64,000 nt of DNA from a virus: the IMG/VR virus record IMGVR_UViG_3300048834_000128, positions 1 through 64,000 of that record; one strand, given 5' to 3'. The notes below the pieces were generated by a model, which did not search any database, had not been told where the DNA came from, and saw nothing but the letters and a program-made list of their open reading frames with translations. The position numbers and the translations under genes were made by a program. Of the stretch, positions 6,467 to 64,000 are shown piece by piece. The stretch's first letter is position 1. Every line of letters begins with the position of its first letter.

Positions 6467-6727
6467 ATGAGAACGAAAGGAAAAAAGAGGAAGGGGAATA
6501 TTTTCAAGGAGTATTTCACCCTGGTTGAGTTGAGTAGGGCGTTCGGTTATAAGAATCCGAACAGTTACTATAGTAGTAATGGGCGACCTCTGTTTGATGA
6601 GGGGATCGGGTTTGTCGTGGAGAGGGTCTGTGAGGTGAAGGATGCTGAGATCGCCCGGTTGCGTCGGATGGTTGCGGCGTCGCTTGGCGAAGGGGAAAAG
6701 AGTGAACAAGGGGGTGGTGGGGTATGA
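6467..6727 (+). CDS. Hypothetical basic protein, 86 aa
   Basis: The start at 6467 (MRTKGKKRKG) is chosen because a promoter -7 box ends 4 nt before it. A frame from 6440 would start upstream of that box. The N-terminus is very basic and the middle (FTLVELSRAFGYKNPNSY) resembles a helix-turn-helix, so DNA binding is plausible. The stop overlaps the ATG of the HNH gene by 4 nt (ATGA), implying coupled translation. Confidence 0.6.
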   Translation: MRTKGKKRKGNIFKEYFTLVELSRAFGYKNPNSYYSSNGRPLFDEGIGFVVERVCEVKDAEIARLRRMVAASLGEGEKSEQGGGGV

Positions 6728-7704
6728 GTGTTTTGAGGACTGATAATATTGAAACCTTCAAAGGCGCCCAATACAGGGTTGTCAGAGGATATCCCGACTA
6801 TCTCGTTTCTGAATACGGGGTGATAATTCATAGGACGAAAGGGTTTGTCAAGGTACATACCAATAAGACAGGATACCGGTTCTGCAGACTCAAGGACTCC
6901 ACAGGGAAATGGATGTCCTGGTTCGTGCACCGGTTCGTCGCTACCGCCTGGATTGAAAACCCTACCCGCAAACCTACCGTCAACCATATTGATGGAGTAA
7001 AGCATAATAACGTGGTGTCGAATCTCGAATGGGCCACAATGAAGGAGCAGATTGACCATGCCCACGGTATGGGACTCATAGTTCACAAGTCCGGCCAGGA
7101 CCATTGGGCGCATGGGATAACCCTGTCTAAAGAGCAAAAAGAGAAAATGTCGCTTGCCAAGACCGGGGAACGACATCCCAGGTTCAAGGGATACTACATC
7201 ACCCCTTTAGGGAAATTCAGCAGCGTCAGAAGTGCCGGCCACGCCCACGGATGGTCGGGAGTCTATTTCAGTACCAGGTTCGCTAAGGAAATACTGAACG
7301 CTACGCCAGGATGGTCCTTTGAAGGGGATTACTCCTCGGTACAGATTAAAAACGAACTGCAAAGACGCGAAAACCCATCTGACCCTGAAATCACAAAAAA
7401 AAGAATGTCTGATTCCAAATTGGGCGAACGTCACCCCAAATTCAAAGGCTGGTACGTCACACCTATAGGCAGGTTTATAAATACCAAGGAAGGCGGTGAG
7501 GCTTACGGGATTTCAAGGGTCGGATTCTTCAGAAAATTCAACAGGGAGGTCAAAAAAGGCACCGATGGATGGACGTTTGACAGGATACCTCCGCTCGCAG
7601 TCTCCGCTCTAAGGGAAAAATTGCCCCAATTGGAACACAAGATCAAGGGACGGAATGATGCAAAATACCCGTTCACCGAAACGGGTGAACCTGAAGATCA
7701 ATAG
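6724..7704 (+). CDS. HNH homing endonuclease with NUMOD repeats, 326 aa
   Basis: Residues 17-45 form a NUMOD4-like segment (YRVVRGYPDYLVSEYG). The HNH core spans about 65-105: VHRFVATAW, VNHIDG at 86-91 and NLEWAT at 100-105. Two NUMOD3-type DNA-binding repeats follow (KEKMSLAKTGERHPRFKG and KKRMSDSKLGERHPKFKG). These site-specific nucleases spread by cutting alleles that lack them. This one lies between an 86-aa basic protein and an antirepressor. Its codon use is GC-richer than the leftward cluster, consistent with independent arrival. Confidence 0.9.
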   Translation: MSVLRTDNIETFKGAQYRVVRGYPDYLVSEYGVIIHRTKGFVKVHTNKTGYRFCRLKDSTGKWMSWFVHRFVATAWIENPTRKPTVNHIDGVKHNNVVSNLEWATMKEQIDHAHGMGLIVHKSGQDHWAHGITLSKEQKEKMSLAKTGERHPRFKGYYITPLGKFSSVRSAGHAHGWSGVYFSTRFAKEILNATPGWSFEGDYSSVQIKNELQRRENPSDPEITKKRMSDSKLGERHPKFKGWYVTPIGRFINTKEGGEAYGISRVGFFRKFNREVKKGTDGWTFDRIPPLAVSALREKLPQLEHKIKGRNDAKYPFTETGEPEDQ

Positions 7705-61137: not shown

Positions 61138-61329
61138 ATGAATATAGTTAATTTAGAGGGCGAAGAATGGCGTCCAGTAGTAGGCTATGAAGGTCTGTAC
61201 GAAGTATCTAATTTGGGTAGGGTTAAATCTCGTGATAGAAGAGTAAGGTCAAAAGGAAATTTAACTCAAATGAAAAAAGGGGTGCTAATGACTCCTTATT
61301 TAAACAATGGTAACTATATACAAGATTAA
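61138..61329 (+). pseudogene. NUMOD4-HNH homing endonuclease, 5' part, split by an IS
   Basis: The first 57 codons (to 61308) encode a NUMOD4 domain: EEWRPVVGYEGLYEVSNLGRVKSRDR. The inverted repeat of the insertion then adds six codons (GNYIQD) and a stop. The missing HNH half lies beyond the element, from 63749. Joining 61308 to 63749 gives an uninterrupted frame (TPYLNN then KYMKVLLRDG). The residual peptide is unlikely to be functional. Confidence 0.92.
61301..61308. repeat. Target-site duplication, left copy (TAAACAAT)
   Basis: The same 8 bp recur at 63741-63748 directly outside the other end of the element. Eight bp is the usual duplication length of IS1595-family transposition. Confidence 0.92.
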
Positions 61330-61335
61330 CCTAAA
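61309..61335 (+). repeat. Left terminal inverted repeat
   Basis: It matches the reverse complement of 63714-63740 at 22 of 27 positions; both begin GGTAA(C/T)TATATAC and contain TTAACC. It contains the TAG stop of the nuclease gene (61333-61331). Confidence 0.92.
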
Positions 61336-61789
61336 TATTTCCTTGATTTGCCCATTTTTGAAATTCTCCCATATTAAAAACCTTCAATAAATTGTTGCCT
61401 ACTTGACCTCTAAGCCATATTTCAGCAGATTGCTTATAACCTCCACCATCTAAAAGCACTATTACTTGGTGAGGGTGTTTCTGTTGAATATTCAATACAA
61501 AGTATGGAAACTTTTCATCGACCGATCCGCCACTCTGTTGCCACTTACTTTCTATAATCAAACAATTTACCCATTTTTCAGGATGAAACAAAACGAAATC
61601 ACAATACATTGGAGTTCCGTATATACTTGCTCCTATATGAAATTGCCTTGAATAAATTGGCTGATTAAGATAAGTTGCAACCTTGAATTTATCTCTTGGA
61701 ACATACTGATATTCCTTTTCAATTAATCTGTCTTCAATGAACTTTTCTAATCGTGTCCCCGTGTAATTTGACTGGTTCTTTTCTTTCAT
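61331..61789 (-). CDS. PD-(D/E)XK restriction endonuclease, 152 aa
   Basis: A short nuclease with Asp64 in MYCDFVLFH and Glu80-Ser-Lys82 in LIIESKWQ, a PD-X15-ExK arrangement. The segment SGGSVDEKFPY and the LLDGGGYK strand fit small type II-like PD-(D/E)XK enzymes that are often found next to DNA adenine methyltransferases. The ATG overlaps the methyltransferase stop (TAATG), so the nuclease is translated last, the safe order for an R-M pair. The cleavage site is presumably that of the partner methyltransferase. Confidence 0.8.
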   Translation of the reverse strand: MKEKNQSNYTGTRLEKFIEDRLIEKEYQYVPRDKFKVATYLNQPIYSRQFHIGASIYGTPMYCDFVLFHPEKWVNCLIIESKWQQSGGSVDEKFPYFVLNIQQKHPHQVIVLLDGGGYKQSAEIWLRGQVGNNLLKVFNMGEFQKWANQGNI

Positions 61790-62733
61790 TAGTAGTTTGT
61801 AATTAAAACCTCTTCAACGGCATTTCTACCATTTGGTTTGCAATTTACAAGTCTTGGAGCATTTACAATAGAAATTTTGAACATATTACCCTTATATAAA
61901 TCTCTTATGAAAGGTGTATTGCTATTTGAAACCATTATTTTCACTCCTTTTTTATGAAGTGACTTGCAAAACTCAGAAAGTTCCCTTTGGTTTTGTTCTG
62001 TAAATCCATCAACTGCATACTTTGTAAATGATGTATCAGTAGTAGGGTGATATGGGGGATCAAAATAAATGAAATCGCCATTTTGCGGACTTAGTTTTGA
62101 ATAATCACCATATCTAACATCTACATTCTGCAATGCTTTATTACAAAGCAAAAGATTGTCCTTTTGGCAAATTCCAGGATTTACATATTTACCCATAGGC
62201 ACATTAAATTCACCTTTTGAATTGACACGATATAAACCATTAAAACAAGTCTTATTCAAATATATCATTCGTGCTGCAATTTCAATAGGGTCTTCTAAAT
62301 TGTGCTGTGAACGAATATGATAATAATATACTTCATTGTGTTTTGCTTGATGTTTTTCAAGAATTTCAATCAACTTTTCAACGTCCTTTTGAATGACCTT
62401 GTAAGTTAAAATCAAGTCCATATTAGCATCATTTAAAACAGCATTATTTAGTTTTGATTGCAATTCAAAAAACAATGCACCTCCACCAACAAAGCCCTCC
62501 CAATATGTATTAAAGTGTTCGGGTAATCTTGATGTCAGTTCGTGCATTATACTGCGCTTACCGCCAACCCATTTTAAAAAGGGGGTTGCTTTATCTCCTT
62601 GCTCTTCATCTTCTGGTATATCAGACAAGTCCTTTGTATTCACATTTGAAAACCTTTCAAGTGCTTCCGAAAATGGCATATCAAGGCTGAATGCAGGATC
62701 GTGTTTTTTTGGGTTTGATGTTTGTTTTGACAT
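61789..62733 (-). CDS. DNA adenine methyltransferase, Dam family, 314 aa
   Basis: The class-alpha N6-adenine methyltransferase motifs are in order: FLKWVGGKR at 52-60, the SAM-binding FVGGGALFFE at 81-90, LNKTCFNGLYR at 159-169 and the catalytic DPPY at 225-228. The first 45 residues are an acidic extension absent from ordinary Dam. Dam and DpnM relatives methylate GATC, so GATC is the best guess for the site. It is co-translated with the transposase upstream and the nuclease downstream. Confidence 0.92.
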   Translation of the reverse strand: MSKQTSNPKKHDPAFSLDMPFSEALERFSNVNTKDLSDIPEDEEQGDKATPFLKWVGGKRSIMHELTSRLPEHFNTYWEGFVGGGALFFELQSKLNNAVLNDANMDLILTYKVIQKDVEKLIEILEKHQAKHNEVYYYHIRSQHNLEDPIEIAARMIYLNKTCFNGLYRVNSKGEFNVPMGKYVNPGICQKDNLLLCNKALQNVDVRYGDYSKLSPQNGDFIYFDPPYHPTTDTSFTKYAVDGFTEQNQRELSEFCKSLHKKGVKIMVSNSNTPFIRDLYKGNMFKISIVNAPRLVNCKPNGRNAVEEVLITNY

Positions 62734-63674
62734 TATGCGTTAGCGATTAGTTGTTGATATTTGATTCGTTTTCCATCGCAACTATTCAGTAGCAAATTAA
62801 ACCTATTTTCTTGTGATATTTCTCTTGTATTATATCTAAACGCAAATTCATTCAAATAGTTGTTAAGGTGTTTAGGACTTACGAAATGGTAAATTCCTAT
62901 AATACCACGTTTTAAAAGCGAGAAAAAACCCTCTGCGGTGTTAGTGTGAACTTCACCTTTTACATACTCACCATGTCCATGTTTTACTATTTGGTGATTG
63001 TAAAGCCATTTTACTGAATTATAAACCCTATACTCATCGGTCATTAGTTTTGTTCCTAAAACCACATTGTTAGTAATAAAATTACCTATTGCTTTGCTAT
63101 CGACTGAATCAGATTTTTGAACCTTTACAATTCCTTTTCTTTCTACAACTGCAAGGACTGGAGTTTTAGTCTTTGTGCTTCTACCTTGTGTATTTTCAGT
63201 TTTCTTAGATCTATGTTTGTTCTTTTCTTTGCCACCAATGTATGTTTCATCAGCCTCAACGATATTTTTCAAAGGAGCATTGAAAGCCTTTGTTCTACTT
63301 GCGTGGCGTAATCTATGAAGCATAAACCAAGCGGTTTTTTGTGTTACATCCAAATCTTTGCCTAACTGCAAAGAACTGATACCTTTTTTGTGTGAGGTTA
63401 TTAGATAGATAGCAACAAACCATTTTTGAAGTGAAATTTTAGTACCCTCGAAAATGCTACCAACCTTAGCAGTAAATTGTTTACGACAATCTTTGCATTT
63501 AAACCTTTTTCCATCTGAAAATGCGTAAACTTTCTCATTTCCACAATGAGGGCAATAAATACCATCTTTCCAACGCATTTGTTTTAGGTGTTCAAGGCAA
63601 ACTTTCTCATCAGAGAAATAATTCATAACTTGCATTAAACTATTGAAATTCAGGTTTTTGCTATCTTTTTTCAT
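62733..63674 (-). CDS. IS1595-family transposase, 313 aa
   Basis: The N-terminus holds a zinc ribbon (CPHCGNEKV, then CKDC; Cys41, 44, 60, 63). The ISXO2-like DDE domain shows VEADETYIGG with Asp142, MTDEYRVY with Asp213 and NTAEGFFSLLKRG with Glu248. All catalytic residues are intact and the length is normal, so the element is probably mobile. The last base of its stop is the first base of the methyltransferase start (TAATG). Confidence 0.95.
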   Translation of the reverse strand: MKKDSKNLNFNSLMQVMNYFSDEKVCLEHLKQMRWKDGIYCPHCGNEKVYAFSDGKRFKCKDCRKQFTAKVGSIFEGTKISLQKWFVAIYLITSHKKGISSLQLGKDLDVTQKTAWFMLHRLRHASRTKAFNAPLKNIVEADETYIGGKEKNKHRSKKTENTQGRSTKTKTPVLAVVERKGIVKVQKSDSVDSKAIGNFITNNVVLGTKLMTDEYRVYNSVKWLYNHQIVKHGHGEYVKGEVHTNTAEGFFSLLKRGIIGIYHFVSPKHLNNYLNEFAFRYNTREISQENRFNLLLNSCDGKRIKYQQLIANA

Positions 63675-63697
63675 ATTCTATGTCCTAATTGACACTA

Positions 63698-63727
63698 CAA
63701 ATATACACAAAATTTTGGGTTAAACAA
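63698..63727 (-). promoter_or_regulatory. Transposase promoter reaching into the right inverted repeat
   Basis: On the minus strand TTG (63727-63725), a 19-nt spacer and TATATTTG (63705-63698) precede the transposase ATG at 63674. The -33 element lies in the inverted repeat, so transposase binding could repress its own gene. Confidence 0.65.
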
Positions 63728-63740
63728 GTATATAATTACC
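63714..63740 (-). repeat. Right terminal inverted repeat
   Basis: Partner of the left repeat at 61309-61335, matching 22 of 27 positions in inverted orientation and starting with GG at the outer end. Confidence 0.92.
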
Positions 63741-63748
63741 TAAACAAT
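63741..63748. repeat. Target-site duplication, right copy (TAAACAAT)
   Basis: Identical to 61301-61308. Confidence 0.92.
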
Positions 63749-64000
63749 AAATACATGAAAGTGTTATTAAGGGATGGGAATAGAAAAAAACTGGTTTATT
63801 TACATAGGTTAATAGCAGGGGCATTCATTGATAATCCTAACAACCATCCTATGATAAACCATATAGACGGCAATAGATTAAACAATTCTATCGACAACTT
63901 AGAATGGTGCACAAATTCAGAAAACCAAATACATGCAATATCCATCGGGTTAGTAGATAGGGGTGATTTATATAAGAGGCTCAATAATAACGGAAGAAGA
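63749..64000 (+). pseudogene. NUMOD4-HNH homing endonuclease, 3' part (runs off the window)
   Basis: In the frame that continues the 5' part, 84 codons are open to the window end. They contain the HNH core: YLHRLIAGAFIDNPNN, MINHIDGNRLNNS and NLEWCTNSENQIHA. An ATG at 63755 could start a fragment lacking the NUMOD4 domain, but no promoter box is seen before it. Together with 61138-61308 it makes at least a 141-residue endonuclease. Confidence 0.9.

Follow-up and report, generated by a model that had tools for sequence, protein, structure and literature searches.

A putative type II restriction-modification pair carried as passengers of an IS1595-family transposon in a phage genome

Introduction

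Restriction-modification (R-M) systems are frequently described as selfish mobile genes. Usually they travel on plasmids or integrated elements, or with an insertion sequence (IS) by accident. R-M systems carried on transposons, placed between IS copies, or moved together with an IS have been described (PMC3031569), and addiction has been proposed as a reason for their persistence (PMC3031569 and references therein). Among the insertion sequences, IS1595 elements with passenger genes are termed "transporter ISs" (Siguier, Gagnevin and Chandler 2009, as cited in PMC3129680 and PMC8496243). Passenger genes in IS1595 elements are thus known, as is the mobility of R-M systems; in open papers we found no description of their combination, i.e., of an IS1595 element with R-M genes, or of the nuclease family PDDEXK_11, and a prior listing in ISfinder or REBASE is possible.

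Here we analyze a locus in a 64,000-nucleotide stretch of DNA (hereafter the window), taken from a 75,878-bp viral record which encodes terminase, portal, and tail genes. An earlier, sequence-only reading of the same DNA had proposed an R-M system packaged inside an IS1595-type transposon. We compared the locus with its relatives in cellular genomes, viral contigs, and plasmids. Most probably, it is an autonomous IS1595-family transposon of the transporter IS type, with the genes of a compact type II R-M system, predicted to be GATC-specific, as its passengers.

Results

The element occupies positions 61309-63740 of the window (2,432 bp). Its 27-bp ends both start with GG and agree at 22 of 27 positions; the end at 61309 reads GGTAACTATATACAAGATTAACCTAAA, and the end reverse-complemented from 63740 reads GGTAATTATATACTTGTTTAACCCAAA. 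The terminal inverted repeat at the nuclease end (61309..61335, + strand) overlaps the last nuclease codons by 5 nt, and the repeat at the transposase end lies at 63714..63740 (- strand). Directly outside both ends is an exact 8-bp target-site duplication, TAAACAAT (61301..61308 and 63741..63748), so that both the imperfect repeats and the duplication proposed earlier were borne out. This end pair was the best in a scan of the whole window for 8-bp duplications around 27-bp inverted ends, which returned no second comparable pair; in 10 shuffled windows, the best pair per shuffle agreed at 16-18 of 27 positions. GG-ended inverted repeats with an 8-bp duplication, characteristic of the IS1595 family, are found in the relatives as well. 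The full element is present once in the record, with one transposase gene between its ends, and its GC content is 33%, compared to 43% in the phage. A composite transposon was considered and rejected, as two flanking IS copies are missing. Both cargo genes lie between the ends of the single IS, which is the arrangement that defines a transporter IS.

Insertion of the element has split a phage NUMOD4-HNH homing endonuclease gene. The 5' part (61138..61308, + strand) contains NUMOD4 (PF07463, 4.2e-13) and matches positions 130-178 of PHROG 59 (phrog_59), and the 3' part (63749..64000, continuing to 64156 of the record, + strand; L185 ORF) contains HNH_3 (PF13392, 5.1e-9) and matches positions 176-243 of the same family. 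When the element is excised together with one copy of the duplication, the flanks form one open frame. The phage has a second HNH endonuclease gene of PHROG 59, located at 6724-7704 of the window.

Genes encoding a transposase (62733-63674), a methylase (61789-62733), and a nuclease (61331-61789) form, in that order, the single leftward operon (- strand) reported earlier. Each junction is a TAATG sequence, that is, a 1-base stop/start overlap, because of which translation of the three genes is probably coupled. The transposase (313 aa, no internal stop) matches PF12762 (1.8e-42, 145.4 bits) and, with its N-terminal zinc ribbon, PF12760 (58.4 bits), both above cut-off, as well as NF033547 (214.6 bits, cut-off 75). 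These three models identify the ISXO2-like DDE domain with zinc ribbon typical of the IS1595 family, in agreement with the intact DDE transposase originally claimed. Many relatives have TTGAC at element position 14, within the transposase-side repeat, and a TATAAT-like box 17 bases further on (fit by shuffling: p <=0.01 for L084 and L085, p 0.03 for L167). The window repeat instead fits the Bacteroidota-type form CTTG-N19-TATATTTG (candidate promoter at 63698..63728, - strand; shuffle p ~0.01), with the upstream box located within the terminal inverted repeat. The simplest reading is that a promoter for the whole operon is carried in the end of the element and that the phage host is a member of the Bacteroidota. 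The distribution of the nuclease cannot fix the host, since it is rare in this phylum (7 of 395 genomes).

The methylase (314 aa) is an N6-adenine DNA methyltransferase of the Dam/DpnM type (PF02086; TIGR00571, 289.9 bits, cut-off 114.85) with the catalytic and SAM-binding motifs FVGGG and DPPY, which confirms the Dam-family assignment made earlier and supplies the methyltransferase expected of a type II system. Its closest PDB chain is M.DpnII (2dpm; 1.1e-59, 205 bits), and the score of E. coli Dam is 124 bits. Alignment to 2dpm and E. coli Dam revealed that the KWxGGK lysine, NGLxRxN, and FNVPxG are common to the three proteins; the Dam/DpnM target-recognition motifs are also kept in the methylases of the relatives, and DPPY in 81 of 81 paired methylase-nuclease loci. 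GATC is predicted as the target site because the recognition-region residues match those of DpnM and E. coli Dam. A single-sequence methylase scan of viral contigs gave no match. The protein also has a 47-residue N-terminal leader (F-LDMPF-EAL-RF; window 62590-62733, - strand) missing from DpnM and Dam. Several other transposon-borne methylases have a similar leader, which also starts an unrelated passenger ORF (L007:2290-2430), as if the leader were part of the element and different cargo could be placed behind it; a scan with the leader motif for further cargo returned L007 only.

The nuclease (152 aa) belongs to PDDEXK_11 (PF20472, 5.7e-36). Its motif, C-D64-X15-E80-S-K82, retains the spacing and the acidic and lysine residues of the PD-X15-ExK signature assigned earlier, with cysteine instead of the expected proline before the aspartate. 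At least 90% of 38 relatives retain D64, E80, and K82; KWQ and GSVDEK are conserved as well. The catalytic pattern is present in 81 of 81 relatives with a neighboring methyltransferase gene and in all 15 transposase-linked loci, so that the window pairs the methylase with a linked nuclease whose active site is intact. In the confident AlphaFold2 model (pLDDT 89.9), the nearest solved folds are PD-(D/E)XK nucleases, including BstEII, Can2, NucS/EndoMS, and PspGI; the structural similarity is weak (E 3e-3 and TM 0.48 for BstEII, the best match; none below E 0.001). A PDB sequence search identified no significant relative, PADLOC and NCBIfam contain no model for the protein, and Pfam at E values up to 1 returned PDDEXK_11 and a weak DUF2726 match only, on which basis membership in the DpnII/MboI protein family was rejected. 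Taken together, the data point to a putative restriction endonuclease from an uncharacterized family of small enzymes, PDDEXK_11. Nuclease searches gave no match in phage records and one in plasmids. A single-sequence search of viral contigs found no close relative, and therefore a nuclease alignment was used to scan them.

Scanning IMG/VR with the transposase yielded 80 loci (L002-L081), of which L013/L014 and L020 hold the trio of genes in the window order at 41-48% identity. The nuclease-alignment scans yielded 80 genome loci and 22 viral loci; with plasmid locus L082 these make 103 loci, in which L166, L167, and L173 are L013, L014, and L020 again. A Dam gene lies near the nuclease gene in 83 of the 103, and in 15 of these 83 an IS1595 transposase gene is located upstream on the same strand. 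The transposase-methylase-nuclease order occurs in Chloroflexota, Rickettsiales, Eremiobacterota, several CPR lineages, and other viral contigs. GG-ended inverted repeats and exact 8-bp duplications surround the trio in L084 (Anaerolineae), L085 (SAR202), L093 (Rickettsiales), L103 (Eremiobacterota), L105 (Paceibacterota), L141 (Colwellbacteria), and the viral loci L163 and L164. Nine elements, including that of the window, thus enclose both cargo genes within exact duplications, which contradicts the possibility that the cargo always lies outside the repeats; the proposed search for the transposase with linked cargo and ends of the same kind has found the trio in cellular genomes and viral contigs alike. 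The duplication matches at 7/8 positions in L132 and at 6/8 in L095, and none was found around the trio in L157, L167, L172, and L173. GG-anchored ends were found for L013, L014, and L020, with no matching duplication in L014 and L020; end pairs assigned to these three loci by an automated search lacking the GG constraint were spurious and were discarded. No copy above ~65% amino acid identity was found. The earlier proposal that the element moves between phages and bacteria is therefore upheld for the distribution, with diverged copies in both, and not for a single transfer event, as no near-identical pair was found.

Several of these loci have further features. Viral contig L013 stops exactly at the terminal CCC of the element (6264), which is typical of a multi-copy repeat in assembly, and the DNA just beyond the element in L014 (6235-6363) encodes a fragment resembling an IS1595 transposase. 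The Rickettsiales/alphaproteobacterial loci L093 (2692-3552) and L095 (4019-5001) have a methylase-nuclease gap of ~0.9 kb, with room for a fourth gene. Nuclease loci with no transposase detected were found in archaea, Rickettsia, Holosporales, and ~50 cyanobacteria, the last with a convergent methylase gene. In Nostocales and other cyanobacteria (L099-L162), PDDEXK_11 with a convergent Dam gene and no nearby IS1595 transposase is widespread and is a candidate chromosomal GATC R-M family. In a Rickettsia MAG (L089:3952-5462), a Dam gene and a PDDEXK_11 gene are enclosed by inverted ends of the TATATAC type, with a duplication matching at 6/8 positions and no transposase; this is a candidate non-autonomous R-M element.

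Protein distances among 14 trio elements are correlated for the transposase and methylase (r 0.86), the transposase and nuclease (r 0.80), and the methylase and nuclease (r 0.88; Mantel permutation, p ~0.0002 in each case). In a tree of 87 transposases, those from R-M carriers cluster (2 label changes compared to 13.2 in shuffled data; 0 of 500 shuffles as low), and the phage element groups with an element from an Anaerolineae genome (100/98). Because the protein distances correlate and the R-M transposases cluster, the three genes behave as a single transposon that is inherited as a whole. In the methylase tree, the labels require 7 changes (14.0 shuffled), with transposase-free pairs interspersed, which indicates that transposase loss or cargo capture also occurred. 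Gene pairing, conserved active sites, and co-divergence support the complete R-M pair proposed earlier, as far as sequence comparison can indicate.

Besides the window element, 49 of the 80 viral IS1595 loci have GG-ended inverted repeats and 8/8 duplications (two 7/8). These 49 elements are 1.3-4.9 kb long, far longer than the 0.9-kb transposase gene, and thus passengers are common and IS1595 elements of viral contigs often carry extra genes. Pfam recognized DNA methylases (L003, L007, and L017), a type I M+S pair (L024), and an MvaI/BcnI-type endonuclease (L018), in addition to DUF3800, P63C, and PIN proteins; the former show that DNA-modification cargo is recurrent in this transposase family.

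Outside 61309-63748, GATC occurs in the phage 45 times compared to 224 expected (~5-fold under-represented), and the phage also avoids CTAG (2 compared to 97 expected), AGCT (15 to 87), and CGCG (21 to 79). The GATC deficit is at odds with a GATC methylase gene having been carried for a long time. Since GATC avoidance would be of little use to a phage with a long history of protection by a Dam methylase of its own, we infer that the element was acquired recently, in a phage lineage exposed to GATC restriction, which suggests that the insertion is not a long-standing phage adaptation. Only the intact duplication points to recent mobility, as no copy above ~65% amino acid identity was found; a search for close DNA relatives of the phage found none.

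In L164 (3151-5478) and L167 (3157-5472), each of the two terminal repeats contains GATC, at an identical place; in L093 and L095, GATC occurs near the promoter, within the first 80 bp. The first 80 bp contain GATC in 5 of 14 R-M elements (~2.1 expected) compared to 6 of 47 others (~12.4 expected). Methylation control of transposition is possible in these R-M elements; in that of the window, GATC is absent from the first and the last 80 bp.

Discussion

Since diverged copies of the three genes are found both in other viral contigs and across several bacterial phyla, the trio is a real, long-lived mobile unit, a putative defense or addiction module, and not a chance arrangement. We infer enzyme activity, specificity, transposition, and phage benefit from sequence comparison. 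In the mechanism that we propose, a promoter with its upstream box in the transposase-side inverted repeat would drive expression of the transposase, then the methylase, and then the nuclease. The methylase would place N6-methyladenine on GATC, and the small PD-(D/E)XK nuclease would cut DNA without this mark, either at GATC or at a site overlapping it. Such a pair would protect the DNA of its carrier and penalize its own loss, so that the element may persist on a chromosome, plasmid, or phage. The phage copy looks like a recent insertion into a selfish gene that the phage can spare, and methylation of the phage genome would be a side benefit against GATC-cutting hosts.

A more far-reaching reading, which we hold as a tentative and rather unlikely extension, is that the trio forms an ancient, dedicated R-M transposon lineage spanning phyla and phages, composed of the transposase, the methylase, and a new GATC-cutting nuclease family, in which the R-M pair serves as the element's own addiction module and Dam methylation of GATC in the ends or promoter makes transposition depend on how the DNA is methylated in some sublineages (L164/L167 and L093/L095).

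The GATC sites of L164/L167 (both ends) and L093/L095 (near the promoter) could also be taken to mean that the methylase leads, being useful for anti-restriction or for control of transposase expression, with the nuclease secondary or inactive in the window copy. Dam control of IS10 and IS50 (PMC9296519) sets a precedent, the phage strongly avoids GATC and would gain from methylation, and IS1595 elements L003, L007, and L017 carry methylases with no recognizable nuclease, as L024 carries a type I-like M+S pair. However, retention of the nuclease catalytic residues in every transposase-linked locus, co-divergence of the nuclease with the methylase, and the GATC-free termini of the window element argue against this explanation, which we consider improbable.

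Even less probable is that the nuclease, instead of being the cognate restriction enzyme, assists the element, e.g., by cutting target or donor sites in favor of transposition or homing. Its gene abuts the terminal repeat and is presumably co-expressed with the transposase, and the interrupted host gene itself encodes a homing-type endonuclease. In contrast, most Dam-PDDEXK_11 pairs, among them the many convergent cyanobacterial pairs and the pair on an Alicyclobacillus plasmid, have no detected nearby IS1595 transposase, and other IS1595 elements lack this nuclease. Finally, a bare IS lying by chance or through chimeric assembly beside unrelated genes would be conceivable for a window that rests on one metagenomic virus record, but it is refuted to near certainty by the exact duplication, the restored host frame, and the conservation of the trio, with co-diverging proteins, in at least 8 other elements from unrelated samples.

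The vehicle of the predicted R-M pair is an IS-sized transposon that has retained the pair through deep divergence and also jumps into phages. Whether the transposon, the phage, or the cell is served by R-M genes can thus be tested directly.

Among known systems, the plasmid of Alicyclobacillus sp. TC (NZ_CP044435.1) resembles the window in its adjacent, co-directional Dam and PDDEXK_11 genes, with 32% identity of the nuclease, and differs in that no IS1595 transposase was detected within 6 kb. The DpnII/MboI (GATC) systems share with the window a methylase closest to M.DpnII and the same recognition-region residues, whereas the window encodes a PDDEXK_11 nuclease (152 aa) unrelated to DpnII by Pfam, a single methylase, and its own transposase. 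In IS-linked and composite-transposon R-M systems (PMC3031569), the R-M genes likewise move with an IS, but they are carried between IS copies or by the activity of an adjacent IS, whereas both window genes are internal passengers of one IS-sized element. The described IS1595 transporter ISs have the same transposase family, GG-ended repeats, 8-bp duplication, and passengers inside a single IS; the window element differs from them in its cargo, which is predicted to be a complete type II R-M pair and has stayed with the transposase across several phyla.
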